64,000 nucleotides of DNA, from NCBI RefSeq assembly GCF_001651865.1, contig NZ_LPUX01000061.1, forward strand, positions 372,001 through 436,000, given 5' to 3'. The DNA comes from Sinorhizobium glycinis. Its GTDB lineage: Bacteria > Pseudomonadota > Alphaproteobacteria > Rhizobiales > Rhizobiaceae. The position numbers were made by a program, and so were the translations under genes. Within the stretch, counting starts at the first letter, position 1. Each line of letters starts with the position of its first letter. Positions 38,007 to 53,915 of the stretch are shown here, one piece after another. The notes below the pieces were generated by a model. That model had not been told where the DNA came from. It was given only the letters and a program-made list of their open reading frames with translations, and did no database searches.

Positions 38007-38023
38007 CTTTCATTGTTAGACTT
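38007..38023 (+). promoter_or_regulatory. Candidate regulon operator, upstream of HxlR gene
   Basis: CTTTCATTGTTAGACTT, 15 of 17 bases identical to the motif at 43696 and 48107. It lies ~50 bases before the regulator start, a position suited to autoregulation. Confidence 0.6.
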
Positions 38024-38073
38024 TTTGACCTAAGTTATAGCGGGAATGGATGACGGCTTTCTGATGATGCGAA

Positions 38074-39054
38074 ATGTTGAATAAAGACACGCTGGCCTCT
38101 GAGCCCTCCAAGGGATTGTCGAAGCCGATACCGCTACAGCGGCAGTCATCGGTCCGCCGTACGATGGAGATCGTCCTCGATACGTGGAACTTCCTCATTC
38201 TTCGGGAAGCGTATTTCGGGGTTCGTCGGTTCGACAAGTTCCAGCAGAGACTGGGCATTCCCCGGCAAACCTTGTCGTCGCGCTTGTCCGCACTTGTCGC
38301 AAACGAGATCATGAGCGTGGGACGGCGGCCCAACGAGCCGGGGCAACAGTATTTCCTGACCGAACGAGGAAAGGATCTCTTTCCGACCATGCTGTCGTTG
38401 ATGGAGTTCGGCGACAAATGGTTGACGGGCGGCAAGGAACCGCCCCTGCAACTGATCCACAAGAGCTGCGGCTGCGCATGCCACCCGGTGACTGTATGCA
38501 GCGAGTGCCTGGAGCCGTTCACGGCGCGAGAGGTTGCGCCCCGCGATGGGCCGGGGGCGGGCTACGCTCCCGTCGATACGCGCCCGACGTCGCGCCGGAG
38601 TTCCGATCCCACGCTTCTGGAGCGGGTGCGGCCATGCTCCGTTGCACGGACGCTCGGCATCATCGGCGACAGATGGAGCTTCCTGATCCTGCGGGAAGGC
38701 TGGTTTGGTGTCCGCCGCTTCGAGGAGATGCGGGAGAACCTTGGCATCGCCACGAACATCCTTGCCGATCGTCTCGCGCGCCTCGTGCAGGCGGAGGTGT
38801 TTCGCAAGGTTCCGTATGGTTCAAGCGAACGGTTCGAGTATCGCTTCACCGAAATGGGGCTCGATCTCTACAAGCCGATGCTGGTGATGATGGCCTGGGG
38901 AGACCGCTGGCTTGCGGAGGGCAAACCTCCGATGCGCCTGCGACACAAGACCTGCGGGCAGGACTTTTCGGCGATCGTCGTTTGCTCCGAATGCAGGAAG
39001 CAGATTACGGTGAAGGATACGGATTACATTCTGCGTTACCCGTTCAATCTGTGA
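38074..39054 (+). CDS. Tandem HxlR-type transcriptional regulator
   Basis: A 326-residue protein made of two HxlR winged-helix domains in one chain. Domain 1 spans ~25-125 (TWNFLILREAYFGVRRFDKF, then GQQYFLTERGKDLFP). Domain 2 spans ~175-275 (DRWSFLILREGWFGVRRFEEM, then FEYRFTEMGLDLY). Each is followed by a cysteine-containing segment (CGCACHPVTVCSEC; CGQDFSAIVVCSECRK) that may be a small metal or redox site. HxlR proteins normally dimerise; the fusion would act as a built-in dimer. It overlaps the hydroxylase large-subunit gene by 11 bases tail to tail. A motif repeated five times across the neighbouring operons is its most likely binding site. Confidence 0.87.
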   Translation: MLNKDTLASEPSKGLSKPIPLQRQSSVRRTMEIVLDTWNFLILREAYFGVRRFDKFQQRLGIPRQTLSSRLSALVANEIMSVGRRPNEPGQQYFLTERGKDLFPTMLSLMEFGDKWLTGGKEPPLQLIHKSCGCACHPVTVCSECLEPFTAREVAPRDGPGAGYAPVDTRPTSRRSSDPTLLERVRPCSVARTLGIIGDRWSFLILREGWFGVRRFEEMRENLGIATNILADRLARLVQAEVFRKVPYGSSERFEYRFTEMGLDLYKPMLVMMAWGDRWLAEGKPPMRLRHKTCGQDFSAIVVCSECRKQITVKDTDYILRYPFNL

Positions 39055-41437
39055 CGGCAGCGGCCGGATCGCGGCGCGCCTGCAGCATCCGGAATATCCG
39101 CTCCGGTGTGACGGGAAGCGTTTCCACCGAGACACTGAGGTGGGAAAGCGCGTCGGATACGGCGTTTGCGATCGTCGCCGGCGCGCCGATCGTGCCGCCT
39201 TCGCCCATGCCGCGGAACCCGCCTACATTGTTGGGCAAATCCGCCTCGATATGCACGATGCCGATATCGGGCACATTGGTCGCCACCGGAACGAGGTAGT
39301 CCGCAAGGCTTGCCGCGACGGTCTGGCCCTGGTCGTCGTGCACGATCTCCTCCAGAAGAGCCGCGCCGATGCCCTGCGCCACCGCGCCCTGCACCTGGCC
39401 ATCGACGATCATCGGATTGATGATCTTGCCGCAATCCTCAGCCACCACGTAACGCAGGACCTTGACGCCGTAGGTCTCCGGATCGACTTCGACCATGGCG
39501 AGATGGGTGGATGAACAGGCGGTGCCGAGATAGGGATCATAGGTCTCCGATGCGGCAAGATCCTCGCGCTGATCGCGCGGAATGCGCCCCATCTGCGAAT
39601 AGACGGCCGATGCGATCTCCTTGAGCGTCATCGTGCAGTTCGAGTTTCGGCTGGTGACGATGCCGTCATGCATGTCGAGGTCGTCGATGCTCTGCTCCAT
39701 CAGATAGGCGGCTGCGCGCAACACCTTGCCCTTGACGACGCGTGCGGCAAGGGTTGCCGCGCCACCGCCGAGAACGGCCGAGCGGCTGGCATAGGTGCCG
39801 CTGGACATCGGCACCAGCGCGCTGTCGCCATGCTTGACCTCGATATCCTCGAGCTTGCAGCCGAGTTCGTCGACAATCACCTGGGCAAGCGTGGTCTCAA
39901 GACCCTGTCCGTGCGAGGCGATGCCGAAGGCGGCGGTGATCGCACCCGTCGCATCGATCTCGATTTTCGCGGTTTCCGTGCCGGTGTTAATGGGCATGCC
40001 GGGAGCGACGGAGATGCGCGAGCCGATGCCGGTCAGTTCCGCATAGCTTGCAAGGCCGATACCGACCCAGCGTCCATCTCGGCGTGCCTCATCCCTTTCG
40101 AGCAGGAGGTTGGGATAATTGACATGCGCGCAGGCGCCTGCCAGGCACTCCTGAAACGCCGACTTGTCCCAGATGATGCCGGAGGCGGTCCGATAGGGGA
40201 ACTCGTCGGCGTTGACGAGGTTCTTGCGGCGAAACGCGACCGGGTCCATGCCCAGCTTGCGGGCCGCCATTTCGATCAAGCGTTCCATCGCGAATGTCGA
40301 GGATGGCCGGCCGACGCCGCGATAGGGTCCGGTAGGCGGCTTGGGAGTGAGAACACCTCGGATACGGCCCCGGTAATGCTCCATCCTGTAAGGGCCTGGC
40401 AGGAAACTCACCACCTGCACGGTTTCGAGGGCAGCGGTCCAGGGATAGATCGAATAGGCGCCGACATCGCCGATGACGTCGGCCCTGAGCCCGATGAGCA
40501 TCCCGTCCTCCGTGACGGCGAGCTCGGCTTCTATCAGCTCATCGAACGCCTGGCTGGTCGCGGACAGGTCTTCCAGGCGATCGCTGACAAACTTCACCGG
40601 GCGCTTGAGCTTGCGAGCAAGGGCGCAGACAAGGATCTCCTCTCCGTACAATGATCCCTTCCCGCCAAAACTGCCGCCGACGTCCGGCGCGACGACCCGC
40701 AGGCGCGTGCCGGGCAAGTCGAGGCATCCGGACAGGACATCCCGGATGACGCCGGGGATATTCGACGAGGTGTAAAGCGTCAGCGCCTGCTTTCGCGCAT
40801 CCCATTCGGCAAGGTAGGATCGGTTTTCCATCGCGACGGCCGTCTTGCGCGTCATCCGGAACCGGCCCTTGACGGTCACCGCGGCGCTCTCGAATGCGGC
40901 ATCGACATCGCCGCGCTTGAATTCCCGCCGGATGATCGTGTTCGTGCCGGCTTCCTCGTGGAGCAGCGGGGCGTCGTCCTTGACCGCGTCGACCTGCCGG
41001 ATCGCGAATGGTAAGGGTTCGTAGTCGATGGTGATATGCTCCAGCGCGTCCTCGGCAGCGTAGCGGCTTTCCGCGACGACGGCGACGACGGGTTCGCCGA
41101 CATAGCGCACCTTGTGGCGCGCCAGTGGCCAGATGGGCGTGGCGTAATAGTCGGGCATGCGGGAGGTGGGGATCGCCGGCCTGACCTCGTTTTCCAGATC
41201 TGTTGCGTCGTAGATGGCGATGACCCCGGGAACGGAGAATGCCTCGCCGACATCGATGTTGAGGATGCGGGCATGCGGCTGGTCGGAGCGGAGCAGCGCG
41301 ACATGCATCATTCCGGCCGGCGCCATGTCGTCCACATATTGGCCTACGCCTGCAAGCAGCCGCGGGTCTTCGGTGCGCTTTACTCGTTTGCCGACAAGCT
41401 TGGGGCGGAGTTCGACGGAATGGTCGTGCAGGCTCAT
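39044..41437 (-). CDS. Molybdenum hydroxylase large subunit (CoxL/XdhB-like)
   Basis: A 797-residue molybdopterin-binding subunit of the xanthine dehydrogenase/CO dehydrogenase family. Visible: GKRVKRTEDPRLLAGVGQYVDD at the N-terminal end, VGGSFGGKG (~260), and the active-site loop GPYRGVGRP. True CO dehydrogenase has an AYxCSFR loop there, so this is a form II-type hydroxylase acting on a ring or other organic substrate. GEGGTIGAPATI near the end carries the catalytic Glu. The start overlaps the stop of the metallo-hydrolase gene (ATGA), and GGGAG precedes it; the longer frame is rejected. With the FAD and 2Fe-2S subunits it forms one enzyme that inserts oxygen from water. Confidence 0.9.
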   Translation of the reverse strand: MSLHDHSVELRPKLVGKRVKRTEDPRLLAGVGQYVDDMAPAGMMHVALLRSDQPHARILNIDVGEAFSVPGVIAIYDATDLENEVRPAIPTSRMPDYYATPIWPLARHKVRYVGEPVVAVVAESRYAAEDALEHITIDYEPLPFAIRQVDAVKDDAPLLHEEAGTNTIIRREFKRGDVDAAFESAAVTVKGRFRMTRKTAVAMENRSYLAEWDARKQALTLYTSSNIPGVIRDVLSGCLDLPGTRLRVVAPDVGGSFGGKGSLYGEEILVCALARKLKRPVKFVSDRLEDLSATSQAFDELIEAELAVTEDGMLIGLRADVIGDVGAYSIYPWTAALETVQVVSFLPGPYRMEHYRGRIRGVLTPKPPTGPYRGVGRPSSTFAMERLIEMAARKLGMDPVAFRRKNLVNADEFPYRTASGIIWDKSAFQECLAGACAHVNYPNLLLERDEARRDGRWVGIGLASYAELTGIGSRISVAPGMPINTGTETAKIEIDATGAITAAFGIASHGQGLETTLAQVIVDELGCKLEDIEVKHGDSALVPMSSGTYASRSAVLGGGAATLAARVVKGKVLRAAAYLMEQSIDDLDMHDGIVTSRNSNCTMTLKEIASAVYSQMGRIPRDQREDLAASETYDPYLGTACSSTHLAMVEVDPETYGVKVLRYVVAEDCGKIINPMIVDGQVQGAVAQGIGAALLEEIVHDDQGQTVAASLADYLVPVATNVPDIGIVHIEADLPNNVGGFRGMGEGGTIGAPATIANAVSDALSHLSVSVETLPVTPERIFRMLQARRDPAAAVTD

Positions 41438-42195
41438 TCGTAAAACTCCCGGCCCTTCCGCAGGGCCTGCCACTGCGCCTCGTCATGTCCGGAGACGATG
41501 GTCGCGCCCTTGTCGCGGAAGACCTTCAAGCGCGCGAGCGCCGCCGCGGCGAGCTCCATGTTCCAGGTGTTCCGCGGCGCGACACCGGCATCGATATTGG
41601 CCTGAAGGGGCGCGGCATCGGAGGCGAGGACGAAGGTGCCGCTGTCCCGCAGCGATACGTGCGCGACAGTCATGCCGGGCGTATGGCCGGGCATGGGAAG
41701 GAGGACGATGTGCCCGTCACCGAAGACGTCGTGCTCCGCGCTGAAGGTCTGAAAGCCTTGCGGCTGGTCCCATTCTGGTTTCAGATAGCCCTGGTTTTCG
41801 GCAGCGTCGGTTTTCGCCGCCGCGACTTCCGCCTCATGGCACAGGATCGTCGCGCGGCCAAAATACTGGTTGCACCCGCAATGGTCGGGATGCAGGTGCG
41901 AGCAGATCACGACGTCGATGTCGCCAGCCTCAAGGCCGAGCGCTGCCAGTTGCCGGACAACCGTCTGCTCCGGATCAAATATCGGCGTCATCACCTTGGC
42001 CAACCCGCCCCAGCGGGCTTGCGGATCGGTGGCGGCCTCAGGGTTGCAGCCGGTGTCGAACAGCACGTTGCCTTGGCGGTGCCGTATCAGGGTAGCGTGG
42101 ACAGGCAGTTCGATCGTCTCCTCCTTCGCCACACCGGGAACGAAGACGGATCGGCGCATGCGAACCCGGCCGCCGGCAAGGAAATGCATCTTCAT
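41434..42195 (-). CDS. Metallo-beta-lactamase-fold hydrolase, AHL-lactonase-like
   Basis: A 253-residue hydrolase with the two-zinc motif SHLHPDHCG, plus MPGHTPGMT and GHDEAQ ligands. It resembles the AiiA/AttM lactonase group. Insertion between the 2Fe-2S and large-subunit genes of the hydroxylase, with 4-base overlaps on both sides, indicates a role in the same catabolic pathway. It probably opens a lactone or cyclic intermediate and need not have a quorum-quenching role. The ATG at 42195 follows AGAGGA; the longer frame lies inside the neighbouring gene. Confidence 0.82.
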   Translation of the reverse strand: MKMHFLAGGRVRMRRSVFVPGVAKEETIELPVHATLIRHRQGNVLFDTGCNPEAATDPQARWGGLAKVMTPIFDPEQTVVRQLAALGLEAGDIDVVICSHLHPDHCGCNQYFGRATILCHEAEVAAAKTDAAENQGYLKPEWDQPQGFQTFSAEHDVFGDGHIVLLPMPGHTPGMTVAHVSLRDSGTFVLASDAAPLQANIDAGVAPRNTWNMELAAAALARLKVFRDKGATIVSGHDEAQWQALRKGREFYE

Positions 42196-42677
42196 GTCAG
42201 AGGTCCTCTTTCCCTCGCCAGTTCCCGGACGGCGTTGACGATGTGTTCGTAGCCTGTGCAGCGACAGATATTGCCGGACAGCGCCTCGCGGATCTGCTCG
42301 TCGCTTTCGAGGGGGTGGTGGCGCAGCATGTCGGTGATCGCCATGATGAAGCCGGGCGTGCAGAAGCCGCATTGCAGGGCGTGGTGCTGGCGGAACGCTT
42401 CCTGAATCCGGCCGAGCTGATCGACGCTCCCCTGTCCCTCGACCGTCTCGATCTCCACGCCTTCGGCCTGGACGGCGAGCGTCAGACAGGACCTTGCGCT
42501 CCGGCCGTCGAGAAGGACGGTGCATGCACCGCAGACACCGTGCTCGCAGCCGACATGCGTTCCCGTGAGGCCAAGCTCGTGGCGCAGGAAATCGCTGAGC
42601 AGCATGCGCGGTTCGATGGTCGCGGTGTGGGCCACGCCGTTCACGCTGACGCTGAGGGTGATCTTCTTTTCAGGCAT
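42192..42677 (-). CDS. Molybdenum hydroxylase 2Fe-2S subunit (CoxS-like)
   Basis: A 161-residue iron-sulfur subunit with both clusters visible: the plant-type set in GCEHGVCGACTVL and C..SC, and the helical set in CGFCTPG and NICRCTGYEHIV. It carries electrons from the molybdenum site to FAD. The start at 42677 (MPEKKITLSVSVNG) overlaps the end of the FAD-subunit gene by 8 bases. The length is standard for the family. Confidence 0.93.
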   Translation of the reverse strand: MPEKKITLSVSVNGVAHTATIEPRMLLSDFLRHELGLTGTHVGCEHGVCGACTVLLDGRSARSCLTLAVQAEGVEIETVEGQGSVDQLGRIQEAFRQHHALQCGFCTPGFIMAITDMLRHHPLESDEQIREALSGNICRCTGYEHIVNAVRELARERGPLT

Positions 42678-43557
42678 CTGGGCCGTCCTTGCGAAAGGTT
42701 GCCCGCTTCCAGGCATCGCGCAGTGCACGCCGCGCAAGTACGCCGGCAAGGTGTCTGCGATAGTCGGCGGACGCGTGGATATCCGTGTTGGGTTGGAGGA
42801 GCCCCTTCAGCGCCTCCGACACGTCCTGCAACAGCCTCTCCGAGATCGCCTGGCCCTCGACGAGCGTTTCGATGTCCGGCAGGCGCAACGGCGTCTCGCC
42901 GACGCCCATCATGCCGAAACGGACGTCGCATGCGACGCCGTCGACGATGCGCATCGTGGTCGCTACGCAGGCGAGGGCAAAATCGCCGTGCCGCCTGGAG
43001 AATTCCTCGAAGCCCCAGCCCGTCTCGGGCGGCAGCGTGTCGATGTCGATCCAGGTGACGAACTCGTCCGGTTCGAGCGACGTCATCAGCGAGCCGACGA
43101 AGAATTCCGAGGCGGCGATCTGCCGCTCTCCCCGGATCGAGAGGGCGGCAATCGTCCCGTCGAGGAGAAGCGTCATCATCGGCATTTCCGCTGCCGGGTC
43201 CGCATGACAGACGCTGCCGCAGAAGGTACCGCGATTGCGCACCGTCAGATGCGCCACGTGATGCATGGCGTCGTGCAGGATCGGGATGTGCCGGTGCACG
43301 AGCGCATCCGTCGCGGTCATGCGGTGCCGCACCGTGGCCCCGATGCGCAGCCGTTCACCGTGCTTTTCGATGCGATCGAGGCCGGCAATGCGGTTGATGT
43401 CGATCAGGATCGTGGGCTTCACCAGACGGAAGTTGATCATCGGCATAAGGCTCTGGCCGCCCGCGATTATCTTGCCGTCGCCGTTCGCAGCGGCGAGGGC
43501 CTCGGCAGCCTCGGCTGCCGATGTCGCGGCGAGGTATTCGAAGGGGGCCGGTTTCAT
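42670..43557 (-). CDS. Molybdenum hydroxylase FAD subunit (CoxM-like)
   Basis: A 295-residue FAD-binding subunit. AGGQSLMPMINFRLVKP near residue 35 and NRGTFCGSVCHADPAAEMP near 105 are the two flavin-binding signatures; CSV.HADP replaces the usual GGSIAHADP form only slightly. It is the first gene of the hydroxylase operon. The start at 43557 (MKPAPFEYLAAT) matches where family members begin; in-frame ATGs at 43593 and 43689 are possible but add unrelated residues. The 17-bp motif lies about 140 bases upstream. Confidence 0.9.
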   Translation of the reverse strand: MKPAPFEYLAATSAAEAAEALAAANGDGKIIAGGQSLMPMINFRLVKPTILIDINRIAGLDRIEKHGERLRIGATVRHRMTATDALVHRHIPILHDAMHHVAHLTVRNRGTFCGSVCHADPAAEMPMMTLLLDGTIAALSIRGERQIAASEFFVGSLMTSLEPDEFVTWIDIDTLPPETGWGFEEFSRRHGDFALACVATTMRIVDGVACDVRFGMMGVGETPLRLPDIETLVEGQAISERLLQDVSEALKGLLQPNTDIHASADYRRHLAGVLARRALRDAWKRATFRKDGPDA

Positions 43558-43695
43558 TTCGCCGCCGTCGATAGGAAAGGCACTCTCCGGCATCGTACGG
43601 CCGTGCGCGCCAGAGTGTTCCGATATATCGCGGAAAGCCTTGTCATCGCGGCTCCTCCCAGCCTCGCCAATCCCATGGCGCATTTTCAAAATTAA

Positions 43696-43712
43696 CTTGC
43701 ATTATTAGACTT
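43696..43712 (+). promoter_or_regulatory. Candidate regulon operator, hydroxylase/CoxG control region
   Basis: CTTGCATTATTAGACTT lies in the divergent region between the hydroxylase operon and coxG. An exact inverted-orientation copy is at 48107-48123. Flanking sequence is A+T-rich, as for a promoter. Confidence 0.68.
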
Positions 43713-43785
43713 AAAATAGGATTGTCAAGCAATACCAGAGCCCCGGGAAAGGGGAGATTTTCGATTGGGACGAGGAGGATATTCC

Positions 43786-44592
43786 ATGGACATGACTGGC
43801 CAGCAGCACATTCCCGCGAGCAAAGAGGAGGTGTGGAGCGCCCTGAACGATGCCGACGTTCTGAAAGTCTGTATCCCCGGATGCCAGGAGCTAACGAAGT
43901 CTTCCGAGACCGAAATGTCGGCTGTTGCCGTCATGAAGGTGGGTCCGGTGAAGGCCCGGTTCCAGGGTGCCGTGACGCTATCGGACCTCGATCCGCCGAA
44001 CGGCTATCGGATCACTGGCGAAGGGCAGGGCGGCGTCGCCGGATTCGCAAAGGGAGTGGCGGTCGTTCGTCTGGAAGCGGTCGAGGATGGAACCGTCCTG
44101 CATTATACCGTCGATGCCCAGATCGGCGGCAAGCTGTCACAGCTTGGCGGGCGGCTTATCGATGCAACCGCAAAACAAATGTCGTGGCAGTTTTTCAAGC
44201 GGTTTGCCGAAGAGATCCACGCCCGCCAAGGTGCCAGACAGTCATTGGCGACATCAACCGCCAGTGATGCCCTCGCGCAACCCGGCCTAGTAAGGCAGTC
44301 GGTCGCCGTCGCGTCGTCCAGCGAGAATGCCTCCGCCTTGCCGCGTGCGCGCGCCGTGCAAGTTTCCGCGTCGCCCACCGGCACTTCGCTCAGCCTGCCG
44401 GTTCTCGCGGCTGTCGTCTTCGCCGCCGTCGTGGTGGCGACGTGGGCGCTCCATGGGGGCTTGCTGCCGAGCCTTGCGCCGCCGGCGGACGGTCCGGCGC
44501 GCATTTCGCCGGATTTGGCGAGCATCGTTCAGCTCATCATGGCCGCAGCCATCGGCTACCTGTTCGGGTCTCGTGCAAGGCGCGCCGGCTGA
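43786..44592 (+). CDS. CoxG-like SRPBCC-domain membrane-anchored protein
   Basis: A 268-residue protein. Residues 1-145 are a CoxG/SRPBCC domain (QQHIPASKEEVWSALNDADV and later KLSQLGGRLIDATAK). An Ala/Ser-rich linker follows, then two short hydrophobic stretches near the C-terminus (~205-225 and ~245-262), so it is probably anchored to the membrane. CoxG recruits CO dehydrogenase-type hydroxylases to the membrane or delivers reducing equivalents to the respiratory chain, and here it sits divergent from such an enzyme. GAGGAGG precedes the ATG at 43786. Confidence 0.88.
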   Translation: MDMTGQQHIPASKEEVWSALNDADVLKVCIPGCQELTKSSETEMSAVAVMKVGPVKARFQGAVTLSDLDPPNGYRITGEGQGGVAGFAKGVAVVRLEAVEDGTVLHYTVDAQIGGKLSQLGGRLIDATAKQMSWQFFKRFAEEIHARQGARQSLATSTASDALAQPGLVRQSVAVASSSENASALPRARAVQVSASPTGTSLSLPVLAAVVFAAVVVATWALHGGLLPSLAPPADGPARISPDLASIVQLIMAAAIGYLFGSRARRAG

Positions 44593-44600
44593 AGTCAAAA

Positions 44601-44625
44601 ACCGGGGCCGAAAACCGGCCCCGGT
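44601..44625 (-). terminator. Rho-independent terminator of liv operon
   Basis: ACCGGGGCC and GGCCCCGGT pair perfectly (9 bp) around a 7-base loop. On the minus strand the hairpin is followed by TTTTTG, which suits termination of the operon ending with livM. On the plus strand it also lies just past coxG but lacks a T run. Confidence 0.75.
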
Positions 44626-44633
44626 AAAGGTCA

Positions 44634-44650
44634 CTTGCATAAGAAGACTT
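44634..44650 (+). promoter_or_regulatory. Weaker copy of regulon motif between coxG and livM
   Basis: CTTGCATAAGAAGACTT, 14 of 17 matches to the motif at 43696. Its location between two convergent gene ends is unusual for an operator, so it may be a chance or auxiliary site. Confidence 0.35.
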
Positions 44651-44653
44651 AAG

Positions 44654-45637
44654 TCAAGATCTTGAACGCTCGAGCAGCGCCTTCAGTTCACCGAACAAAC
44701 CCCGCCTGAACATCATCACGCATACGACGAAGAACAGGCCGATGATGAATGTGATCGGCAGGCCGCTGGTCGACAGAAAATGCTCCAGCCCGACGACGAT
44801 GCTGGCGCCGGCGATCGGGCCGATCAGCGTGCCCATTCCGCCGAGAAGGGTCATGAGAATGACTTCGCCAGACATGTGCCAGGTAACGTCCACAAGCGAG
44901 GCGAGCTGGAACGCGATCGCCTTCAGCGCGCCGGCGAAGCCTGAAAGCGCGGCGGAGAGGGTGAAGGCGATCAGCTTGTAGCGTTCCGGCTTGAGGCCCA
45001 GCGAGGTGACGCGGGTTTCATTCTCGCGAATGGCCGAGAGGATATGGCCGAAGGGCGAGTTGACGGTCCTCCAGATGATCACAAGGCCAAGAATCGTTCC
45101 GCCGAGGACGGTGTAATACATGGCGGTGATGTCGCGGAGATCGATGATCCCGAGAAGATAGCCCCGCGGCACGGCCTGAATGCCGTCCTCCCCGCCGGTG
45201 AAGGGCATCTGCACCGCCATAAAATAGACCATCTGCGCGAGGGCGAGCGTAATCATGGCGAAGTAGATGCCATGGCGGCGGATGGCCAGCGTGCCGAAGG
45301 CAAGGCCGAGAAGCGCCGCAAAGGCCGTTCCCGCAAGCACGGCGAGTTCAAAGGGAAGCTGCCAGACCTTGGCGGCGTGGGCGGTGATGTAGGCCGCGCC
45401 GCCAAAAAAGGCCGCGTGACCGAACGACAGGAGCCCTGCATATCCCAGAACGAGGTTGAACGCCGCCGCGAAGAGCGCGAAACAGAGGATCTTGATGAGG
45501 AACAGCGGATAGATCGCCAGCGGCGCGCATATCATCAGCATGGCCACAAGGGCGAGAAGAAGGCCTCCGGTCGTCCGGAGCCGGCGCGTGCGCGGGGCCT
45601 CAAGGGAAGAAACCATGGTTGTACTGTTCATGATCAA
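44654..45637 (-). CDS. livM: Branched-chain amino acid-type ABC permease (LivM-like)
   Basis: A 327-residue permease with about nine to ten hydrophobic segments. ALFAAAFNLVLGYAGLLSFG and the cytoplasmic RVTSLGLKPERYKLIAFTLS coupling region are typical of LivM. It is the last gene of livG-livF-livH-livM, overlapping livH by 4 bases. With the catabolic genes around it, the importer probably takes up the pathway substrate (an aromatic or carboxylate) rather than leucine. A strong terminator follows at 44601-44625. Confidence 0.92.
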   Translation of the reverse strand: MIMNSTTMVSSLEAPRTRRLRTTGGLLLALVAMLMICAPLAIYPLFLIKILCFALFAAAFNLVLGYAGLLSFGHAAFFGGAAYITAHAAKVWQLPFELAVLAGTAFAALLGLAFGTLAIRRHGIYFAMITLALAQMVYFMAVQMPFTGGEDGIQAVPRGYLLGIIDLRDITAMYYTVLGGTILGLVIIWRTVNSPFGHILSAIRENETRVTSLGLKPERYKLIAFTLSAALSGFAGALKAIAFQLASLVDVTWHMSGEVILMTLLGGMGTLIGPIAGASIVVGLEHFLSTSGLPITFIIGLFFVVCVMMFRRGLFGELKALLERSRS

Positions 45638-46521
45638 GCCTCGCGGGAGAACAGGCCGGATGGCCGGATGAGAATGACAAGGACCATCACCACGAAAACC
45701 GCTATGGAGGATGCCGCAGGATAGAATGTCTTCGTCAGCCCCTCGATGATGCCCAGCGCCAGGGCGGTGACGATTGCGCCGCCGATCGATCCCATGCCGC
45801 CGATGACGACCACCGCGAAGACTACGATGATGACGCTGGACCCCATGCCGGGGCTGACCTGATAGAGCGGCGCGGCCAGTGCGCCTGCAAAGCCGGCAAG
45901 GCCCACGCAGAAGGCGTAGGTCGCAGTCAGCATGAACGGGACATTGATTCCGAATGCCTGGACCAGGCCCGGATTTTCCGTCGCAGCCCGCAGGTAGGCG
46001 CCGAGCTTGGTCCGCTCAATCGCCAGCCACGTGGCGATGCAGACTGCGAGAGAGGCGACTATCACCCAGGCGCGATACATCGGCAGGAACATGAAGCCGA
46101 GATTGATGCCGCCCGTCAGAGACGGGGGTATCGGATAAGGCTTGCCGGCGGCGCCGTAGACATGCCGGAAGAGCCCTTCGAGCATCAAGGCAATGCCGAA
46201 TGTGAGAAGCAGGCTGTAGAGGTGGTCGACCCTGTAGAGGCGCTTGAGAAATAACCGCTCCACGACGGCGCCCAGCGCCCCGACCATCAGGGGTGCGGCG
46301 ATGAGTGTTTCCCAATAGCCGATACCGAGGGCCGACAGCAGCAGCCAGGCGGCGAAGCCGCCGAGCATGTAGAAGGCGCCATGAGCGAAGTTGATCACGT
46401 TCAGCATGCCGAAGATAATGGCGAGGCCGAGGCTTAGGAGAGCGTAGAAGGAGCCGTTGATCAAGCCGAGCAGCAGTTGCCCGAGTAAAACGACAATTGG
46501 AACCCCGAAGATATCAGTCAT
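45634..46521 (-). CDS. livH: Branched-chain amino acid-type ABC permease (LivH-like)
   Basis: A 295-residue permease with the LivH pattern LLLGLINGSFYALLSLGLAI near the start, NFAHGAFYMLG, and GMGSIGGAIVTALALG near the end. It pairs with LivM to form the membrane channel of the importer. It begins 35 bases downstream of livF and overlaps livM by ATGA. Confidence 0.93.
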   Translation of the reverse strand: MTDIFGVPIVVLLGQLLLGLINGSFYALLSLGLAIIFGMLNVINFAHGAFYMLGGFAAWLLLSALGIGYWETLIAAPLMVGALGAVVERLFLKRLYRVDHLYSLLLTFGIALMLEGLFRHVYGAAGKPYPIPPSLTGGINLGFMFLPMYRAWVIVASLAVCIATWLAIERTKLGAYLRAATENPGLVQAFGINVPFMLTATYAFCVGLAGFAGALAAPLYQVSPGMGSSVIIVVFAVVVIGGMGSIGGAIVTALALGIIEGLTKTFYPAASSIAVFVVMVLVILIRPSGLFSREA

Positions 46522-46556
46522 CGGTTTCTACCTATTTGAAGGGAGCGCGTCATGGA

Positions 46557-47264
46557 TCAGACTCCGAGATATCTGTTCAGCCGGTCCATGTTGGCGTCGA
46601 GTGCGTTGTTGGAGATTTCGTCGACGACCTTTCCTTGGTCGAGCACGTAGTGGCGATCCGCGATGGATGCCGCAAAACGAAGGTTCTGCTCGACCAGGAT
46701 GATCGTCATGCCGCGGTCCTTGAGAATGCGCAGCGCCGCGCCGATCTCTTCGATGATCACGGGGGCGATGCCTTCGGTCGGCTCATCGAGCAGGATGAAA
46801 TCGGCGCCCGTCCGAAGAATCCGGCCGATGGCCAGCATCTGCTGTTCGCCGCCGGACAGGCGGGTTCCCGATGTGCTGTCCCGCCCTTTCAGGTTCGGAA
46901 AGAGGCCGTATATTTCGTCGACGGCCATGCCGCCCGCCTGCCATGCCGGCGGAAACAGGAGATTTTCCAGCACAGTGAGTGAGGAGAAGATGCCGCGTTC
47001 TTCCGGCACATAGCCGATGCCGAGGCGCGCAACCTTATGCGGCGCGACCTTCAGGAGGTCGGCGCCCTTATAGCTGCAGGCGCCGCGTCTCTTTCCAACG
47101 ACGCCGATGAGGCTGCGCAACGTCGTCGTCTTGCCGGCGCCGTTGCGGCCAATGAGCGTCACGACTTCGCCCTTTCGCACATCGAAATCGATGCCATGCA
47201 GCACATGGCTTTCGCCATACCAGGCCTCCAGGCCTTTAACGTCGAGGAGGGGAGCCTCAGCCAT
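46557..47264 (-). CDS. livF: ABC transporter ATP-binding protein (LivF-like)
   Basis: A 235-residue ATPase with Walker A GRNGAGKTT, signature LSGGEQQM, Walker B FILLDEP and a LivF-type C-terminus. ATG at 47264 overlaps livG by 8 bases. It drives transport together with LivG. Confidence 0.93.
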   Translation of the reverse strand: MAEAPLLDVKGLEAWYGESHVLHGIDFDVRKGEVVTLIGRNGAGKTTTLRSLIGVVGKRRGACSYKGADLLKVAPHKVARLGIGYVPEERGIFSSLTVLENLLFPPAWQAGGMAVDEIYGLFPNLKGRDSTSGTRLSGGEQQMLAIGRILRTGADFILLDEPTEGIAPVIIEEIGAALRILKDRGMTIILVEQNLRFAASIADRHYVLDQGKVVDEISNNALDANMDRLNRYLGV

Positions 47265-48015
47265 GGCTGCCTCCCATATACGCCTTGCGGACTTCGCTAT
47301 CGGCGGAAACGTCGGCATAGCTTCCTTCCGCGATGACCTCTCCGCGGCGCAGCACGGTGATCCGGTCCGACAGGTCGGAGACGACGCCGAGATTGTGCTC
47401 GACCATCAGTACCGTTCGCCCCTTTCCGACGCTGCGGATCAGGGCGGCCGTCCGGCCGATATCCTCCGTGCCCATTCCCGCCATCGGCTCATCGAGAAGC
47501 AGGACTTCGGGGTCGAGCGCCAATGTGGTGGCCAGTTCAAGGGCGCGCTTTCGCCCGTAGGACAGCTCGGCGGCTTTCGTCTGCGCCCGGTCGGTAAGGC
47601 CGACGCTGTCGAGCAGCCTGGTCGCTTCCTCGTTGAAGCGGCGGAGCGTCGCGTTCGATTTCCAGAATGCGAATGTTTCTTTCGCGCGGGCCTGCAGAGC
47701 GACCCGGACATTCTCATGCGCGCTGAGATGCGGGAACACAGATGAAATCTGAAACGACCGCACGAGGCCCAGGCGCGCGATGTCGGCGGGCGCCATTTGC
47801 GTTATGTCGCGATCCTTGAACAGGATCTGCCCGCTGCTCGGCGACAGGAATTTGGTCAAGAGATTGAACAGAGTGCTCTTGCCGGCGCCGTTCGGCCCGA
47901 TCAGGGCGTGGATCGTGCCGGCACGAATCTTCAGGTCGACATTCTTGACGGCAATGAAGCCGCTGAACGAGCGCGTCAATGCACGCGCTTCGATGATGGG
48001 TGCGCTATCCGGCAC
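47257..48015 (-). CDS. livG: ABC transporter ATP-binding protein (LivG-like)
   Basis: A 252-residue ATPase: Walker A GPNGAGKST, LSYGRKRALELA in the signature position, Walker B VLLLDEPMAGM. GTG at 48015 is chosen because GAGGAGG lies just before it; the longer ATG frame has no family similarity. It is the first gene of the operon. The upstream divergent region shared with the binding-protein gene holds two copies of the 17-bp motif. Confidence 0.92.
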   Translation of the reverse strand: MPDSAPIIEARALTRSFSGFIAVKNVDLKIRAGTIHALIGPNGAGKSTLFNLLTKFLSPSSGQILFKDRDITQMAPADIARLGLVRSFQISSVFPHLSAHENVRVALQARAKETFAFWKSNATLRRFNEEATRLLDSVGLTDRAQTKAAELSYGRKRALELATTLALDPEVLLLDEPMAGMGTEDIGRTAALIRSVGKGRTVLMVEHNLGVVSDLSDRITVLRRGEVIAEGSYADVSADSEVRKAYMGGSHG

Positions 48016-48106
48016 GGTTCCTCCTCTGCCGACTTGGTTTTCCCAGGGGGCCGCATCAACCGGCCCGCCTCCCATTGTGATGTCGGCACGGTCAGAAAAA
48101 CACATA

Positions 48107-48123
48107 AAGTCTAATAATGCAAG
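48107..48123 (-). promoter_or_regulatory. Candidate regulon operator, livG side
   Basis: Reverse complement reads CTTGCATTATTAGACTT, identical over 17 bases to 43696-43712. It is 92 bases upstream of the livG start. Confidence 0.68.
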
Positions 48124-48204
48124 CTTGCGCTTTCTCGCAAAACCTGCTTACCTAGCCCCATAAGGCCTACTGTAGCGCCACAAATGAAGCGGCCTGCTTC
48201 ATAT

Positions 48205-48221
48205 AAGTATGATAACGCAAG
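48205..48221 (-). promoter_or_regulatory. Candidate regulon operator, binding-protein side
   Basis: Reverse complement reads CTTGCGTTATCATACTT, 14 of 17 matches. It is 55 bases upstream of the binding-protein start. A short palindrome (ATGAAGC..GCTTCAT, 48184-48202) lies beside it. Confidence 0.5.
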
Positions 48222-48275
48222 TGTATTATCTGGTGTCTGGGAGGAGCTCAGGTGCCAAATTCGGGAGGAAGAGCG

Positions 48276-49484
48276 ATGAAAAATAAGCTTATGCTGTTGT
48301 CCTGCGTCGCGGCCGTCGGTGCCATGACCATGTCTGCCGGGGCGCAGGATGCCGCACCTGTTCGCATCGGCGTGCTGACCGATGTCAGTGGTCAGTTCTC
48401 GCATGAGGCGGGCGAGGGGGCGATCACCGCCGTGAAGATGGCGGTCGAGGATTTCGGTGGCAAGGTTCTCGACCGGCCGCTCGAAGTCGTCGTGGCCGAC
48501 CACCAAAACAAGCCGGAGGTGGCGGTGTCCACGGCGCGCGAGTGGTATGAATCGCAAGGCGTGACGATGATCAACAACCTGATCAATTCCGGCATTGCGC
48601 TGGCTGTCACCCAGGTCGCCAAGGACGAGGACAGGATCGCGATCGTCAACGGCTCCGGCTCGTCCCGCCTGACGAACGACGGCTGCACGCCGAACAGCAT
48701 CCACTACTCCTACGACACCTACGCGCTTGCGAACGGAACCGCCAACCAGCTGATCTTGCAGGGCATGAAGAACTGGTTCTTCCTGACAGCCGATTACGCA
48801 TTCGGCCATGCGCTGGAGGCTGATGCGACAGAGATCGTCAAGGACAATGGCGGCGAGGTCTCCGGCTCCGTGCGCTATCCGATCGAGACTTCCGACCACA
48901 GCGCGTTCATGCTGCAGGCGCAGGCTTCGCCGGCGCAGGTCGTTGCCATGGCGGGATCCGGCACGTCCTTCATCAATGCAGTGAAGTCCGCAGCCGAGTT
49001 CGGTCTTGCCGCATCCGGCAAAACGGTTGCGGGCTTGCTCGTCTGGGATACCGACGTTCATTCGCTCGGCCTCGAGACCGCGCAGGGCATGATCCTGACG
49101 AACGCCTTCTACTGGGATCGCGATGATGCGACGCGGGCGTTCTCTAAGCGCTTCGAAGAGCGCGTCGGCCGCCCGCCGCATATGGGCGATGCGGGGGATT
49201 ACTCTTCGACCATGCACTATCTGAAGGCCGTTGAGGCGGCCGGCACGACCGATGCCCAGAAAGTCATGGCAAAGATGCGCGAAACACCGATCAACGACTT
49301 CTTCGCCAAGAACGGCAAGATCCGTGAGGATGGCCGGATGGTGCACGACATGTACGTCTATCAGGTCAAGACGCCGGCCGAATCCACGGGTGAGTGGGAC
49401 ATTCTGAAGCTCGTCACCACCATATCAGGCGACAACGCTTTCCGTCCGCTTTCGGAAAGCCAGTGCCCGCTCGTGAAGAACTGA
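48276..49484 (+). CDS. ABC transporter substrate-binding protein (LivK/PBP type I)
   Basis: A 402-residue periplasmic binding protein with a signal peptide (~1-23, cleavage near SAGA-QD). VRIGVLTDVSGQFSHEAGEG and GRPPHMGDAGDYSSTMHYLK are typical of the branched-chain/aromatic PBP group. It is divergent from the liv permease/ATPase operon and shares its control region. The ATG at 48276 follows GGGAGGAAG. The ligand cannot be read; aromatic acids and amides are common ligands for relatives in catabolic loci. Confidence 0.9.
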   Translation: MKNKLMLLSCVAAVGAMTMSAGAQDAAPVRIGVLTDVSGQFSHEAGEGAITAVKMAVEDFGGKVLDRPLEVVVADHQNKPEVAVSTAREWYESQGVTMINNLINSGIALAVTQVAKDEDRIAIVNGSGSSRLTNDGCTPNSIHYSYDTYALANGTANQLILQGMKNWFFLTADYAFGHALEADATEIVKDNGGEVSGSVRYPIETSDHSAFMLQAQASPAQVVAMAGSGTSFINAVKSAAEFGLAASGKTVAGLLVWDTDVHSLGLETAQGMILTNAFYWDRDDATRAFSKRFEERVGRPPHMGDAGDYSSTMHYLKAVEAAGTTDAQKVMAKMRETPINDFFAKNGKIREDGRMVHDMYVYQVKTPAESTGEWDILKLVTTISGDNAFRPLSESQCPLVKN

Positions 49485-49578: not shown

Positions 49579-50346
49579 ATGAGCGATATTCTCGTTGAAA
49601 ACACGGATGGGGTTGCGGTGGTCACATTGAGCCGCCCCGGGCACAGGAATGCCGTTACCTATGCGATGTGGCGGCAGCTCGCGGAGCTGTTCCGCGCCTT
49701 CGACCGGGACCCGTCGGTTCGGTCGATCATCCTGACGGGGGCCGGCGATGACTTTTCGGCTGGCGCCGACATCAGCGAGTTTGACGTGGTTCGCGGCGGG
49801 CTCGAGGACAGCAAATCCTATGAGTTGGCGGTCGATGCCGCAGGGGATGCGATCTACCAGGTGTCCAAGCCGACGATCGCCGCCCTGCGGGGATATTGCC
49901 TCGGCGGCGCGGCGCATCTGGCCATGTCATGCGATTTCCGCGTTGCTGAGAACAATGCGGTCTTCGGAATTCCTGCCGCCCGATTGTCGATCGTCTATGG
50001 CGTCTCCGCGACCCGCAAACTTTACGCGCTCGTGGGTGTGACGCAAGCGAAGCGCATCCTCTTCTCGGCCAGTCGCTTCGATGCTGGGCAGGCTCTCGAA
50101 ATCGGCTTCATCGATCAGGTTGCGGAGAATGCTCTTGCTGCCGCGCATTACCGGGCCGCGGAGCTGGCTGAAAACGCACCCCTCACGATTGCGGGCGCGA
50201 AGTTCATTCTCAACGGCTGCGCACGCGGGGCGCTGGATCACGCCGCGGCTGGCAGGCTGATCGACGAGGCCAGCGCGAGCGAGGACTACATCGAAGGCCG
50301 GCAGGCTTTCAAAGACAGGCGTCCGCCCCGGTTTCTGGGGAAGTGA
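49579..50346 (+). CDS. Crotonase-fold protein lacking both usual glutamates
   Basis: A 255-residue enoyl-CoA hydratase/isomerase-family protein. The oxyanion-hole loops are present (FSAGADISEF ~59-68; YCLGGAAHLAMSCDF ~106-120). The two acidic residues used by hydratases are replaced: the ELA-type Glu is H113, and the PE-type Glu region reads PAARLSIVYG (no Glu). Its chemistry is therefore probably not simple hydration; crotonase relatives without these residues carry out isomerisation, C-C cleavage or dehalogenation. It is the first of five enzyme genes running to 54.4 kb. Confidence 0.83.
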   Translation: MSDILVENTDGVAVVTLSRPGHRNAVTYAMWRQLAELFRAFDRDPSVRSIILTGAGDDFSAGADISEFDVVRGGLEDSKSYELAVDAAGDAIYQVSKPTIAALRGYCLGGAAHLAMSCDFRVAENNAVFGIPAARLSIVYGVSATRKLYALVGVTQAKRILFSASRFDAGQALEIGFIDQVAENALAAAHYRAAELAENAPLTIAGAKFILNGCARGALDHAAAGRLIDEASASEDYIEGRQAFKDRRPPRFLGK

Positions 50347-50425
50347 CCCGACTTCGGCCCCATGGAAGGGGCCGCAATAGATCGCGCTGCGCTGCAGCCG
50401 TCAGACCTATCAAGGAGATCGTGAA

Positions 50426-51181
50426 ATGCAGACCAATCTGAATGGCAAGGTGGCGCTGGTGACCGGCGGCGGAAGAGATGTCGGCGGAGATATCGCCCGG
50501 TCTCTCGCGGCGGAAGGCGCCATCGTTGCAGTGAATTACAGCCGTTCGCAGGCCGAGGCGGATTCGGTGGTTGCCTCGATCGAAGCAGCGGGCGGAAAGG
50601 CCAAGGCCTACAAGGCCGATATCGGTGAAAACGATCAGGTCAAGGCGATGATCGCCGCCGTCAAAGCGGATTTTGGAACCATTGATGTGCTGGTCAATAA
50701 CGCCGGATATGTCAAATATCAGCGGTTCGTCGACTCGACCCCTGAAGAATGGAAGAAGCAGATCGACGTATGCCTCTACGGCGCGATCAATTGCTGCCAC
50801 GCCGTTGCGCCGCTGATGATCGAGCAGAACTTCGGCCGCATCATCAACCTTGTTGGTGACAGCTCCCGTATTGGCGAAGCCAATCTCGCACTGGCCGCGG
50901 CCGCGCGTGGCGGCACGATCGCGCTCGGCAAATCGCTGGCCCGTGAATTCGGCCGAAATAACATCACGGTCAACTCGGTATCGCTCGGCCTGATCGAGAC
51001 GTCCCATTCCGATCCAGAGTTTCTCGAGAAGAACCGTGAGAAGATCGTGAAGGCCTATCCTTTGCGCCGCATCGGCAGGCCCGATGACGTGGCGCCGATG
51101 GTGACCTTCCTGGCGTCCGAGGCATCGTCCTGGGTGACAGGCCAGGTCATCAGTGTCAACGGCGGTTTCTGCATGGTCTAA
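50426..51181 (+). CDS. SDR-family protein without catalytic Tyr-Lys
   Basis: A 251-residue short-chain dehydrogenase-fold protein. Cofactor motif TGGGRDVGG (13-21) and NNAG (91-94) are intact, and Ser remains in VGDSS (~146). Where the family has Y-x3-K the protein reads ALAAAARGG: the Tyr is Ala (~157) and the Lys is Arg (161). It may bind NAD(P) without normal reductase activity, act as a regulatory subunit, or use different residues. It has a good AAGGAG site and lies between the crotonase-like and CoA-ligase genes. Confidence 0.83.
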
Positions 51182-51202
51182 CCGGAGGAGCGGGAGGATA
51201 AC

Positions 51203-52729
51203 ATGATACACTTCGAGCTTATCGCGCCGGTTGGAGCAATCCTTCGACGGAATGCGCGCCTGTATCCCGGGAAAATGGCCTTCGAGGACAGGAGGCGGTC
51301 AGTTTCCTATGACGCCCTGGACCGGGAGACAGAGGACCTCGCGTCCCGCCTCGTTGCGCTGGGTCTCAGGAAAGGCCAGGCCGTCGCGATCTTTCTGCCG
51401 AACTCAGTAAATTGGGTCGTCGCTTGCCTTGCCGTCGTGCGGGCGGGCGGAACCGCCGTTCCGGTGAGCATCGAGGCGACCGAGGCCGAAATCGCCTACC
51501 GAATCAGCGATGCGGAATGCGTTTTCCTGATCATGCCGCCGGAAAAGCAGCCTGTCGTGGACACGTTGCTGCAGCGCTCCGAGAAACCGCCCGTCGTGAT
51601 TGCCGTGAACGAGGAGATCGGCTTTGACGCGTCGGGGCAGACGGCTGCATTCGAGGATGATCAGGATATCGATCGCCCGGCATTCATCGTCTACACATCC
51701 GGCACGACAGGCCAGCCCAAGGGCGTCCTGCTATCGATGCGCTCCATGCTCTGGGTGACGGCGGCGTGCTGGGCGCCGATCGCGGGGTTGAACGAGAATG
51801 ACATCGTTCTCAACACCCTACCTCTCTACCACTCCTATGCTCTGAATATCGCGGTTCTCTCCATCATCGCGACGGGCGCGAGCGAATACATCATGGAGAA
51901 GTTCTCGACCTCTCAGGCGACGGAACTTCTTCGGACAGGTCGCTTCACCTTCATGCCCGGGGTTCCGACGGTCTTCCACTATTTCCTGTCGGCCTGCCAG
52001 GCCAGCGGAGAAAGGCTGCTTTCGTCCGTCCGCCTTTGCGTCTCCGCTGGGGCGATCATGCCGGGAACGCTGAACAGCGACTTTGAAGCGTTTTTCGACG
52101 TTCCGCTTCTGGATGGTTACGGTATCACCGAAACATCGACGATGGTGACCATGAACTGGCCTGGGAAATGGCGTGTTCCTGGTTCCTGTGGGCTACCGGT
52201 TCCGGGCCTCACGGTCCGCCTGGTGGATCCGAAAACGGGTCTCGACGTGCCGGTGGGCGTCGAGGGCGAATTGATCTGCAAAGGCCCGAACCTGATGCAG
52301 GGCTACCATAACAAGCCGCTGGAGACCGAAAAAGCCGTCGTCGACGGATGGTATCATACCGGCGATCTAGCGAAGTCCGACCTCAACGGCTTCCTCACGA
52401 TCACCGGCCGCCTCAAGGAACTGATCATCCGCGGCGGGCAGAATATCGCACCAGCGGAGGTCGAGGAGGCGATCCTCCTGTTGCACGACACAGTCATGGA
52501 CTGCGCGGTGGTCGGGATGCCTCACAGCATGCTGGGAGAGGTCCCCGTCGCCTGCATCGTCGTCAAGGAAGGGCAGGCCTTCGACCAGGAGGATCTGATG
52601 CGGCACTGCAAGGCGCGTCTCTCTGCCTACAAAGTTCCTGACCGCGTCTATGTCGTGGCTGAGATCCCGCGCACGGGATCGGGAAAAATCCTGCGGGTCA
52701 AACTTCGCGAAAGCCTCCCTGCGGCGTGA
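51203..52729 (+). CDS. Acyl/aryl-CoA synthetase (AMP-forming)
   Basis: A 508-residue ANL-family ligase: P-loop VYTSGTTGQPKGV (~163-175), YGITETST, WYHTGDLA, GRLKELIIRGGQNIAPAEVEE as GRLKELIIRGGQ then NIAP, and the acyl-adenylate lysine in PRTGSGKILR near the end. It activates a carboxylic acid with ATP and CoA for the following beta-oxidation-like steps. The ATG is preceded by GGGAGGA. It is in the same operon as the crotonase- and SDR-like genes. Confidence 0.92.
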   Translation: MIHFELIAPVGAILRRNARLYPGKMAFEDRRRSVSYDALDRETEDLASRLVALGLRKGQAVAIFLPNSVNWVVACLAVVRAGGTAVPVSIEATEAEIAYRISDAECVFLIMPPEKQPVVDTLLQRSEKPPVVIAVNEEIGFDASGQTAAFEDDQDIDRPAFIVYTSGTTGQPKGVLLSMRSMLWVTAACWAPIAGLNENDIVLNTLPLYHSYALNIAVLSIIATGASEYIMEKFSTSQATELLRTGRFTFMPGVPTVFHYFLSACQASGERLLSSVRLCVSAGAIMPGTLNSDFEAFFDVPLLDGYGITETSTMVTMNWPGKWRVPGSCGLPVPGLTVRLVDPKTGLDVPVGVEGELICKGPNLMQGYHNKPLETEKAVVDGWYHTGDLAKSDLNGFLTITGRLKELIIRGGQNIAPAEVEEAILLLHDTVMDCAVVGMPHSMLGEVPVACIVVKEGQAFDQEDLMRHCKARLSAYKVPDRVYVVAEIPRTGSGKILRVKLRESLPAA

Positions 52730-52754
52730 CGCGGGAAAGGCACAGGAGAAAATC

Positions 52755-53915
52755 ATGAATCCCTTTGTGTTCAGTACGACAGGCCACCTCGTCTTCCGTC
52801 CCGGCGCGGCGGCGCAGATTGGCGGACTCCTCGATCCCAGGTTTGGCGAGCGCATCCTGTTCGTCACCGATGGCGGTCTTAGAAAGCTTGGCCTGTGCGA
52901 CCCCGCGCTCGCCTCCCTCTCGGGATCGGGTATTGCGGTCACCGTATTCGACGCGGTCGAGGCCGACCCGTCGCTGACGATGGTAGAGGCCGCGATCGAG
53001 GTGGCGAAAACCGCGGGTGTGACAGGCGTGATCGGCTTCGGCGGCGGTTCCTCGCTGGATGTAGCGAAGGTCGTGGCGCTTCTCTGCGGTTCGGGCGAAG
53101 ATATGGATGGCGCATGGGGCGTCGGCAACGCCAAGGGACCTCGGCTGCCGTTGGCGCTCGTGCCCACGACGGCGGGAACGGGTTCGGAGGTGACGCCGGT
53201 CTCGATCATTACGGTGGGTGGTGATGAGAAACGCGGCATTTCATCGCCGATCATCCTGCCTGACGTTGCGATCCTCGATGCGGACCTGACGCTCGGCCTT
53301 CCGCCGTCGACCACTGCCGCCACCGGCATCGACGCGATGGTGCATGCCATCGAAGCTTATGCTTCCAGAAGCGCGAACAACAATCCGCTCTCCAGGATGC
53401 TGGCCCGGCAAGCGCTCCAGTTGCTGGGCGAGAATATCGAGAAGGCTGTGTTTGAAGGGGAGGATCGGGCGGCGCGGGGCGCGATGCTCCTCGGGTCCAT
53501 GCTGGCGGGCCAGGCCTTCGCCAATTCGCCGGTCGCCGCCGTGCATGCGCTCGCCTATCCGATCGGCGGGACCTTCCATATTCCGCACGGGCTTTCCAAC
53601 GCGCTCGTGCTTCCGCATGTCTTGCGCTTCAATGCGCCGGTGGCCGCCTCCGTCTACGCCGAAATCGCCGCTGATGCCTTTCCGGATCTCGCGTGCGAAC
53701 AGGACGCCGGGCAGCGTTGCGCGGCCTTTATCGAGCGTCTAGCCGAACTGTCGACGAGGCTCGGGCTGCAGCCTCGGTTGCGGGACGTGGGCATCGGCGA
53801 AGAGCACCTCGCCGGAATGGCGGGGGACGCGATGAAGCAGACCAGGCTCCTCGTGAACAATCCCCGAGATGTGAACGAGGCGGACGCCCTCTCTATCTAC
53901 AAGGCGGCTTGGTGA
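52755..53915 (+). CDS. Iron-containing alcohol dehydrogenase
   Basis: A 386-residue member of the iron-dependent ADH family. The NAD-binding GFGGGSSLD (~96-104) and metal ligands in TGIDAMVHAIEAY and AVHALAYPIGG..HIPHG are all visible. Relatives oxidise alcohols, 4-hydroxybutyrate or lactaldehyde, or reduce maleylacetate. AGGAGA precedes the ATG at 52755. Its TGA shares the A with the ATG of the thioesterase gene, so the two are coupled. Confidence 0.9.
   Translation: MNPFVFSTTGHLVFRPGAAAQIGGLLDPRFGERILFVTDGGLRKLGLCDPALASLSGSGIAVTVFDAVEADPSLTMVEAAIEVAKTAGVTGVIGFGGGSSLDVAKVVALLCGSGEDMDGAWGVGNAKGPRLPLALVPTTAGTGSEVTPVSIITVGGDEKRGISSPIILPDVAILDADLTLGLPPSTTAATGIDAMVHAIEAYASRSANNNPLSRMLARQALQLLGENIEKAVFEGEDRAARGAMLLGSMLAGQAFANSPVAAVHALAYPIGGTFHIPHGLSNALVLPHVLRFNAPVAASVYAEIAADAFPDLACEQDAGQRCAAFIERLAELSTRLGLQPRLRDVGIGEEHLAGMAGDAMKQTRLLVNNPRDVNEADALSIYKAAW

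Follow-up and report, generated by a model that had tools for sequence, protein, structure and literature searches.

A conserved asymmetric motif as the likely operator of a tandem HxlR regulator in a catabolic gene cluster of Sinorhizobium glycinis

What links the operons of a catabolic gene cluster in Sinorhizobium glycinis that share one asymmetric 17-bp motif, and which protein reads it? The stretch analysed here, called the window throughout, comprises 64,000 nucleotides of contig NZ_LPUX01000061.1 (positions 372,001 to 436,000) and includes a gene for a regulator with two HxlR domains on a single chain. An earlier note, made from the letters alone, had listed five copies of the motif, placed four of them upstream of genes, and proposed that they join separate operons into one regulon under this tandem HxlR protein. 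We consider it likely that the motif is the operator of the protein (38074-39054), which would act as a pseudo-dimer whose two domains read unlike half-sites, and which would repress the catabolic operons. The asymmetry of the site, its frequent overlap with promoters and the conservation of the fifth copy go beyond the earlier note.

Motif sites and the tandem HxlR gene

A motif search of the window, allowing up to three mismatches, recovered exactly five matches, the same five as in the earlier note. Together with the regulator gene, these candidate operators are:

38007..38023, + strand: operator 1, CTTTCATTGTTAGACTT, two mismatches, about 50 bp 5' of the tandem HxlR gene, found by motif search
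38074..39054, + strand: tandem HxlR regulator, 326 amino acids, recognised from Pfam PF01638 in two stretches, its sequence, half-to-half BLASTP and a structural model
43696..43712, + strand: operator 2, CTTGCATTATTAGACTT, exact motif with no mismatch, in the divergent gap between the molybdenum (Mo)-hydroxylase operon and coxG
44634..44650, + strand: operator 3, CTTGCATAAGAAGACTT, three mismatches, between the 3' ends of coxG and livM, with no gene start here
48107..48123, - strand: operator 4, exact motif with no mismatch, in the divergent gap between livG and the binding-protein gene
48205..48221, - strand: operator 5, CTTGCGTTATCATACTT, three mismatches, in the same livG/binding-protein gap

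Dinucleotide-shuffled versions of the window contained a mean of 0.01 matches, and none of 100 shuffles reached five. Across the whole assembly (6.04 Mb; 6,036,221 bases), there were six matches at up to three mismatches, five of them inside 10.2 kb of the window and the sixth, CTTGCATGATTAGGCAT, at G000:C53:1167481; the same search with the reversed pattern gave one match. The motif is therefore not equally frequent in unrelated regions, which the earlier note had named as grounds for abandoning its proposal. Gene context also agrees with the placement of four sites upstream of genes, 44634 being the exception. Operators 4 and 5 form a pair 98 bp apart, and operator 5 overlaps TATGAT, a -10-like hexamer on the + strand. 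The flanks of the motif copies differ from each other. Operator 1 has counterparts in Rhizobiaceae relatives, also 5' of the HxlR gene, and the tandem HxlR gene may be autoregulated through it.

Each of the two HxlR domains is followed by an HKxCG..C..C tail (HKxCG and CxxC), and the N- and C-terminal halves are 42% identical over 144 columns in BLASTP. Since both halves have domain and tail and are this similar, the gene arose, judged from its sequence, by duplication of a complete HxlR protein and fusion of the copies. Membership of PF01638 is clear (118.3 bits against a cut-off of 20.8, in two stretches), whereas the typical form of the family, a single-domain homodimer with a symmetric site, is replaced by a two-domain chain with an asymmetric site. 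An AlphaFold2 model built from 45 sequences had a mean predicted local distance difference test score (pLDDT) of 85.1 and a predicted template modelling score (pTM) of 0.83. Foldseek placed this model in the HxlR/DUF24 fold (2f2e, TMt 0.81; YodB, HypR and the HxlR-DNA structure 7bzg at E 0.003-0.02); the best Protein Data Bank matches were PA1607 and PA1374 (E <0.001), followed by YodB, HypR and HxlR. In the annotation of one plasmid-borne relative (L263), the start of the regulator is placed 90 bases later (38074-38163 in the window; L263:18001-18090). That later start loses the ER.CSV.RT stretch, which is conserved in the alignment, and the start at 38074 looks better.

Conservation and distribution of the motif

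We compared 79 loci from named genomes that encode the tandem protein at 36-97% identity (21 close and 58 distant), each cut at 10 kb on either side. By title, they are mostly from Alpha- and Betaproteobacteria, with one labelled Gammaproteobacteria. At up to two mismatches, the consensus CTTGCATTANTAGACTW had 59 matches in the close loci (19 of 21) and 66 in the distant ones (45 of 58); permuted consensuses (n = 100) had means of 0.07 (maximum 3) and 0.31 (maximum 2), respectively. With W at position 8 and the same threshold, 65 of the 79 loci carried a total of 140 sites. Most of these (109) lay no more than 450 bp from a cluster-gene start identified by BLAST, a set of starts that includes CoxG rows from an out-of-frame query (4 sites, motif strand), and 13 of the other 31 lay downstream of coxG, like 44634. 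Gene order is widely rearranged among the loci (CoxG matches were ignored in this comparison), yet in many of them sites still precede the Mo-hydroxylase, alcohol dehydrogenase, binding-protein/liv or enoyl-CoA hydratase operons. This recurrence before the same operons in rearranged orders was seen in both Alpha- and Betaproteobacteria. A chance repeat, or a recent duplication of one promoter segment, could account for two copies in the window being identical over 17 bp; the unlike flanks, the conservation over deep divergence and shuffled gene orders, and the permutation test make such an origin so improbable that it can practically be set aside.

Within the family, 7 of 297 genomes encode the tandem protein (E ≤1e-40), and the Mo-hydroxylase large subunit (E ≤1e-180; up to three candidates scored per genome) occurs in the same seven. 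Perfect matches to CTTGCATWANTAGACTW were confined to genomes with the tandem gene (five matches in three of the seven). At up to one mismatch, the motif was present in five of the seven genomes that encode the tandem protein and in 8 of the 290 that do not. The latter look like chance, because the reversed pattern was found in 39 of the 297 genomes and in none of the seven. All nine matches at this threshold in the five genomes lie about 9 kb or less from a copy of the tandem gene. One genome (G251:C4) has two tandem HxlR genes (L256 and L257), 71 and 61% identical to that of the window, and a motif lies within 5 kb of each of them.

The tandem HxlR gene is also present on 21 plasmid records from rhizobia, agrobacteria, Bradyrhizobium and Aminobacter, of which 18 are typed as conjugative. 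All four plasmid loci examined (L263-L266) contain sites. In B. elkanii (L264), two sites lie in the gap between the binding-protein and HxlR genes and one before the enoyl-CoA hydratase operon; in Aminobacter (L265), one precedes the HxlR gene and the livG/binding-protein gap holds two. The sites of both loci thus fall in the expected annotated gaps. L263 has five sites, and L266, a region without annotation, has four.

Thirteen further loci encode more distant tandem HxlR proteins (31-48% identical stretches). At up to three mismatches, they yielded 12 matches in nine loci, compared to a mean of 1.26 and a maximum of seven matches or five loci for 500 permuted consensuses, and the same test found no match in 107 single-domain loci. 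Given this excess over permutations in tandem loci and the absence from single-domain loci, the asymmetric site seems to accompany the fused form of the protein, less certainly here than in the 79 loci. Matches adjoin the HxlR gene in L243, L244, L246 and L252, and other tandem HxlR loci show variant sites.

Architecture of the proposed operator and promoter geometry

The tandem site is a 15-bp pseudo-palindrome, CTTGCAT-W-AnTAGAC, with unequal halves, CTTGCAT and GTCTAnT, around one central base. We set it beside single-domain relatives from the same genome and others. From 146 loci, 133 were kept (13 had no BLAST match or identical first 100 residues), and 126 remained after removal of seven two-copy rows; this set replaces an earlier count of 48/131 that included halves of tandem proteins. 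A GTT-N9-AAC palindrome (at least five of seven pairs, within 230 bp upstream) occurred in 47 of the 126 loci, where shuffles predict 1.74, and in none of the equally long coding controls. The pattern had been chosen on 34 of these loci; among the 92 fetched later, it occurred in 32 (1.2 expected). Examples are GTTTCATCATGAAAC and GTTGCTTCAAGCAAC. The halves of the tandem motif align with this register. A palindrome centred between positions 9 and 10 (TTGCAT-TAnT-AGACTA) was dropped because single-domain operators centre at position 8, and AGTCT-N7-AGACT in L111 was set aside, a locus that also has GTTGCTTCAAGCAAC. A long inverted repeat of a different type, TGCATGATGATAGTCAC-N7-GTGACTATCATCATGCA, stands before a single-domain HxlR gene at L122:1434-1477 and was likewise set aside.

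The base at position 4 of the single-domain half-site is associated with the fifth residue of the recognition helix stretch. A G at this position (GTTG) was found in 22 of 27 loci where the residue is N (mostly NIL or NVL) and in none of 20 others (Fisher test, 9e-9), the latter class still including L159, a 367-amino-acid frame that is probably also tandem and has no G. Counted by distinct helix, the proportions were 15 of 19 and 0 of 16, and among the loci fetched later they were 17 of 22 and 0 of 10 (Fisher test, 5e-5). In the tandem proteins, the helix of the C-terminal domain reads [TSP]N(I/V)L in all aligned rows except L075, and that of the N-terminal domain mostly PRxTL. Since the N helix goes with a G at position 4 and the C-terminal helix has this N, the C-terminal domain ([TSP]NIL) would read CTTGCAT, leaving GTCTAnT to the N-terminal domain (PRxTL). 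In L065, L067 and L071, a changed left half coincides with a changed C-terminal helix (NILANRL), and the right half is kept, a covariation within one clade that is weakly in keeping with the assignment. An asymmetric site in the shared register, together with the helix/half-site association, indicates that the tandem protein is probably a single-chain pseudo-dimer.

Promoter elements were sought around 65 distinct sites of the distant loci. Beyond the AGACT end of the motif, TGTCAA (up to one mismatch) starts at position 28 in 13 sites, at position 32 in 20, and at 27, 30, 31 or 33 in seven more, giving 40 of 65 at positions 27 to 33; beyond the opposite end, no position had more than two such boxes. 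In the window, operator 2 has a TTGACA -35 element (TGTCAA on the + strand) starting at motif position 28. Where the -35 exists, the motif covers the -10 region and the promoter reads from the AGACT towards the TTGCA side. A site downstream of the -35 and over the -10 region suggests that the bound protein would repress by blocking polymerase. The tandem HxlR could instead bind as an activator that aids RNA polymerase, as B. subtilis HxlR is described as responding positively to formaldehyde with enhanced transcription activity (PMC7835342), and as 25 of the 65 distant sites have no recognisable -35. The other 40 sites lie where a bound protein usually blocks polymerase, and we regard activation as unlikely.

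The site at 44634 bears on the question from another side. In all 20 sequences compared (19 close loci with livM, some near-identical, and the window; L038 and L048, with no livM match, were left out), the best match near the 3' end of livM, out of about 165 positions per sequence, has at most one mismatch in the 12 half-site bases, and in 18 it has none. The centre varies, as do the flanks between less related loci. In L004, the distance between livM and coxG is greater, and coxG is followed by another site of this type. Because the half-sites are kept, the centre and flanks vary and no gene starts here, this conservation points to selection on the half-sites themselves at 44634, apart from any promoter. 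It also bears on the suggestion that the motif is the site of a different regulator from another place in the genome, or a promoter element recognised by a special sigma factor: at many sites the motif centre does overlap the -10 region, but half-sites kept beside a variable centre without a gene start, perfect family matches limited to genomes with the tandem gene, and halves that resemble HxlR half-sites leave that suggestion with very little probability.

Chains might also pair with each other (N with C', C with N'), such that one dimer bridges two operators with a loop of DNA between them, with 44634 as an auxiliary anchor. The two sites 98 bp apart between livG and the binding-protein gene would suit such looping, as would the retention of the promoterless site in 20 of 20 Rhizobiaceae sequences. 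Some loci, such as L035, show a single site at up to two mismatches within their 10-kb limits, and we give inter-chain pairing a minor but real chance, slightly above that of activation.

Several observations weigh against an operator of the tandem HxlR protein that acts by repression. Fourteen of the 79 loci lack a site at up to two mismatches, although some are short contigs and seven carry a three-mismatch form, and two of the seven family genomes with the regulator (G174 and G196) have no site at up to one mismatch. Shared descent among the loci means that the counts overstate their independence. At 25 of the 65 sites tested, all from distant loci, there is no -35 box at positions 26 to 34, and in the window 43696 is the sole site with a -35 box there. 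The left half starts with C, whereas single-domain half-sites are anchored on GTT, and the GTT-N9-AAC palindrome was not found upstream in 79 of the 126 single-domain loci. Among the more distant tandem proteins, the matches at L245:841, L247:6481 and L251:6339 fall within long open frames or well away from the gene. Set against these points, the clustering of sites, their co-occurrence with the regulator, their recurrence before rearranged operons and their HxlR-like halves support the proposal that the separate operons form one regulon under the tandem HxlR.

We propose the following sequence of events. The two diverged HxlR winged-helix domains on one chain would act as a built-in pseudo-dimer that reads CTTGCAT-W-AnTAGAC, with the C-terminal domain on CTTGCAT and the N-terminal domain on GTCTAnT. 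Bound at promoters, the protein would lie over the -10 region, 3' of a TTGACA -35, and thereby repress the operons of the importer, the Mo-hydroxylase and the CoA pathway. In Rhizobiaceae, it would also repress its own gene. An inducer would lift the repression; the substrate that is imported or a CoA intermediate presumably has this role.

Genes of the proposed regulon and comparison with known systems

The genes around the sites, some with starts refined from an annotated relative, are as follows:

39044..41473, - strand: Mo-hydroxylase large (molybdopterin) subunit, putative regulon member, in the same 7 of 297 genomes as the regulator
41434..42195, - strand: metallo-beta-lactamase-fold hydrolase resembling N-acyl homoserine lactone (AHL) lactonases, putative regulon member
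42192..42677, - strand: Mo-hydroxylase [2Fe-2S] subunit
42670..43557, - strand: Mo-hydroxylase FAD subunit, start from an annotated relative
43786..44592, + strand: CoxG-family protein, start from an annotated relative
44654..48105, - strand: livM, livH, livF and livG, a branched-chain-type ABC importer, with livG start approximate and names from a relative
48252..49484, + strand: periplasmic substrate-binding protein
49579..54358, + strand: operon for an enoyl-CoA hydratase, a short-chain dehydrogenase/reductase (SDR), an AMP-binding CoA ligase, an Fe-alcohol dehydrogenase and a 4HBT thioesterase

None of the 13 NCBIfam models matching the Mo-hydroxylase large subunit reaches its cut-off; against the aerobic CO dehydrogenase and 4-hydroxybenzoyl-CoA reductase models, the subunit scores 597.9/950, 496.2/991.15 and 410.2/994.55 bits (score/cut-off). 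Just upstream of the regulon, a frame at 36204-37700 resembles sulfite dehydrogenase-type molybdoenzymes, below the cut-offs, and 38007 is the only site between it and the HxlR gene. The G+C content of the window changes from about 0.54 (1-28000) to about 0.61 (28000-64000), as if stretches of different origin meet.

These findings define a catabolic regulon that is widely shared and in part carried on plasmids; asking what induces it could lead to its substrate. One repeated word leads to a testable code for which recognition helix reads which half-site in a large, little-studied family, and it suggests that a dimeric repressor can be released from the need for symmetric sites when its genes fuse. 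More speculatively, and with somewhat less than even confidence, tandem HxlR proteins may represent a natural class of single-chain, two-headed repressors spread over several lineages and settings. Their asymmetric operators would follow a simple helix-to-half-site code and be fixed in direction relative to the promoter, and the conserved promoterless operator between convergent operons would serve as a loop anchor or roadblock. In open-access PubMed Central, with subscription journals mostly outside its scope, we found no report of a natural tandem HxlR or of asymmetric HxlR operators.

The nearest solved structures by both sequence and fold are PA1607 (2f2e) and PA1374 (4gcv) of Pseudomonas aeruginosa. 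Their sequence match is over the C-terminal domain, and they differ from the tandem protein in that their chains, of 146 and 168 residues, have a single HxlR stretch. YodB and HypR (MarR/DUF24), which are single-domain redox sensors, match the fold with weaker E-values, and the HypR structure is titled a redox regulator. The rhizobial repressor SydR is of the MarR type and has a different, symmetric site (PMC11633110).

B. subtilis HxlR (7bzd, 7bzg) shares the HxlR/DUF24 winged-helix fold and binds DNA as a dimer (PMC7835342). The DNA with which it was crystallised, CAGTATCCTCGAGGATACTG, is an inverted repeat with GTATCC halves, near the GTTTCC of some single-domain relatives analysed here. 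It differs from the tandem protein in being a dimer of one-domain chains (123 residues) on a symmetric site with an even-numbered centre. The closest parallel in architecture is an engineered sensor, HxlR-cpYFP-HxlR, which likewise carries two HxlR subunits on a single chain (PMC7835342). Whereas that construct is artificial, the protein described here is a natural fusion of two diverged copies that would read an asymmetric site.

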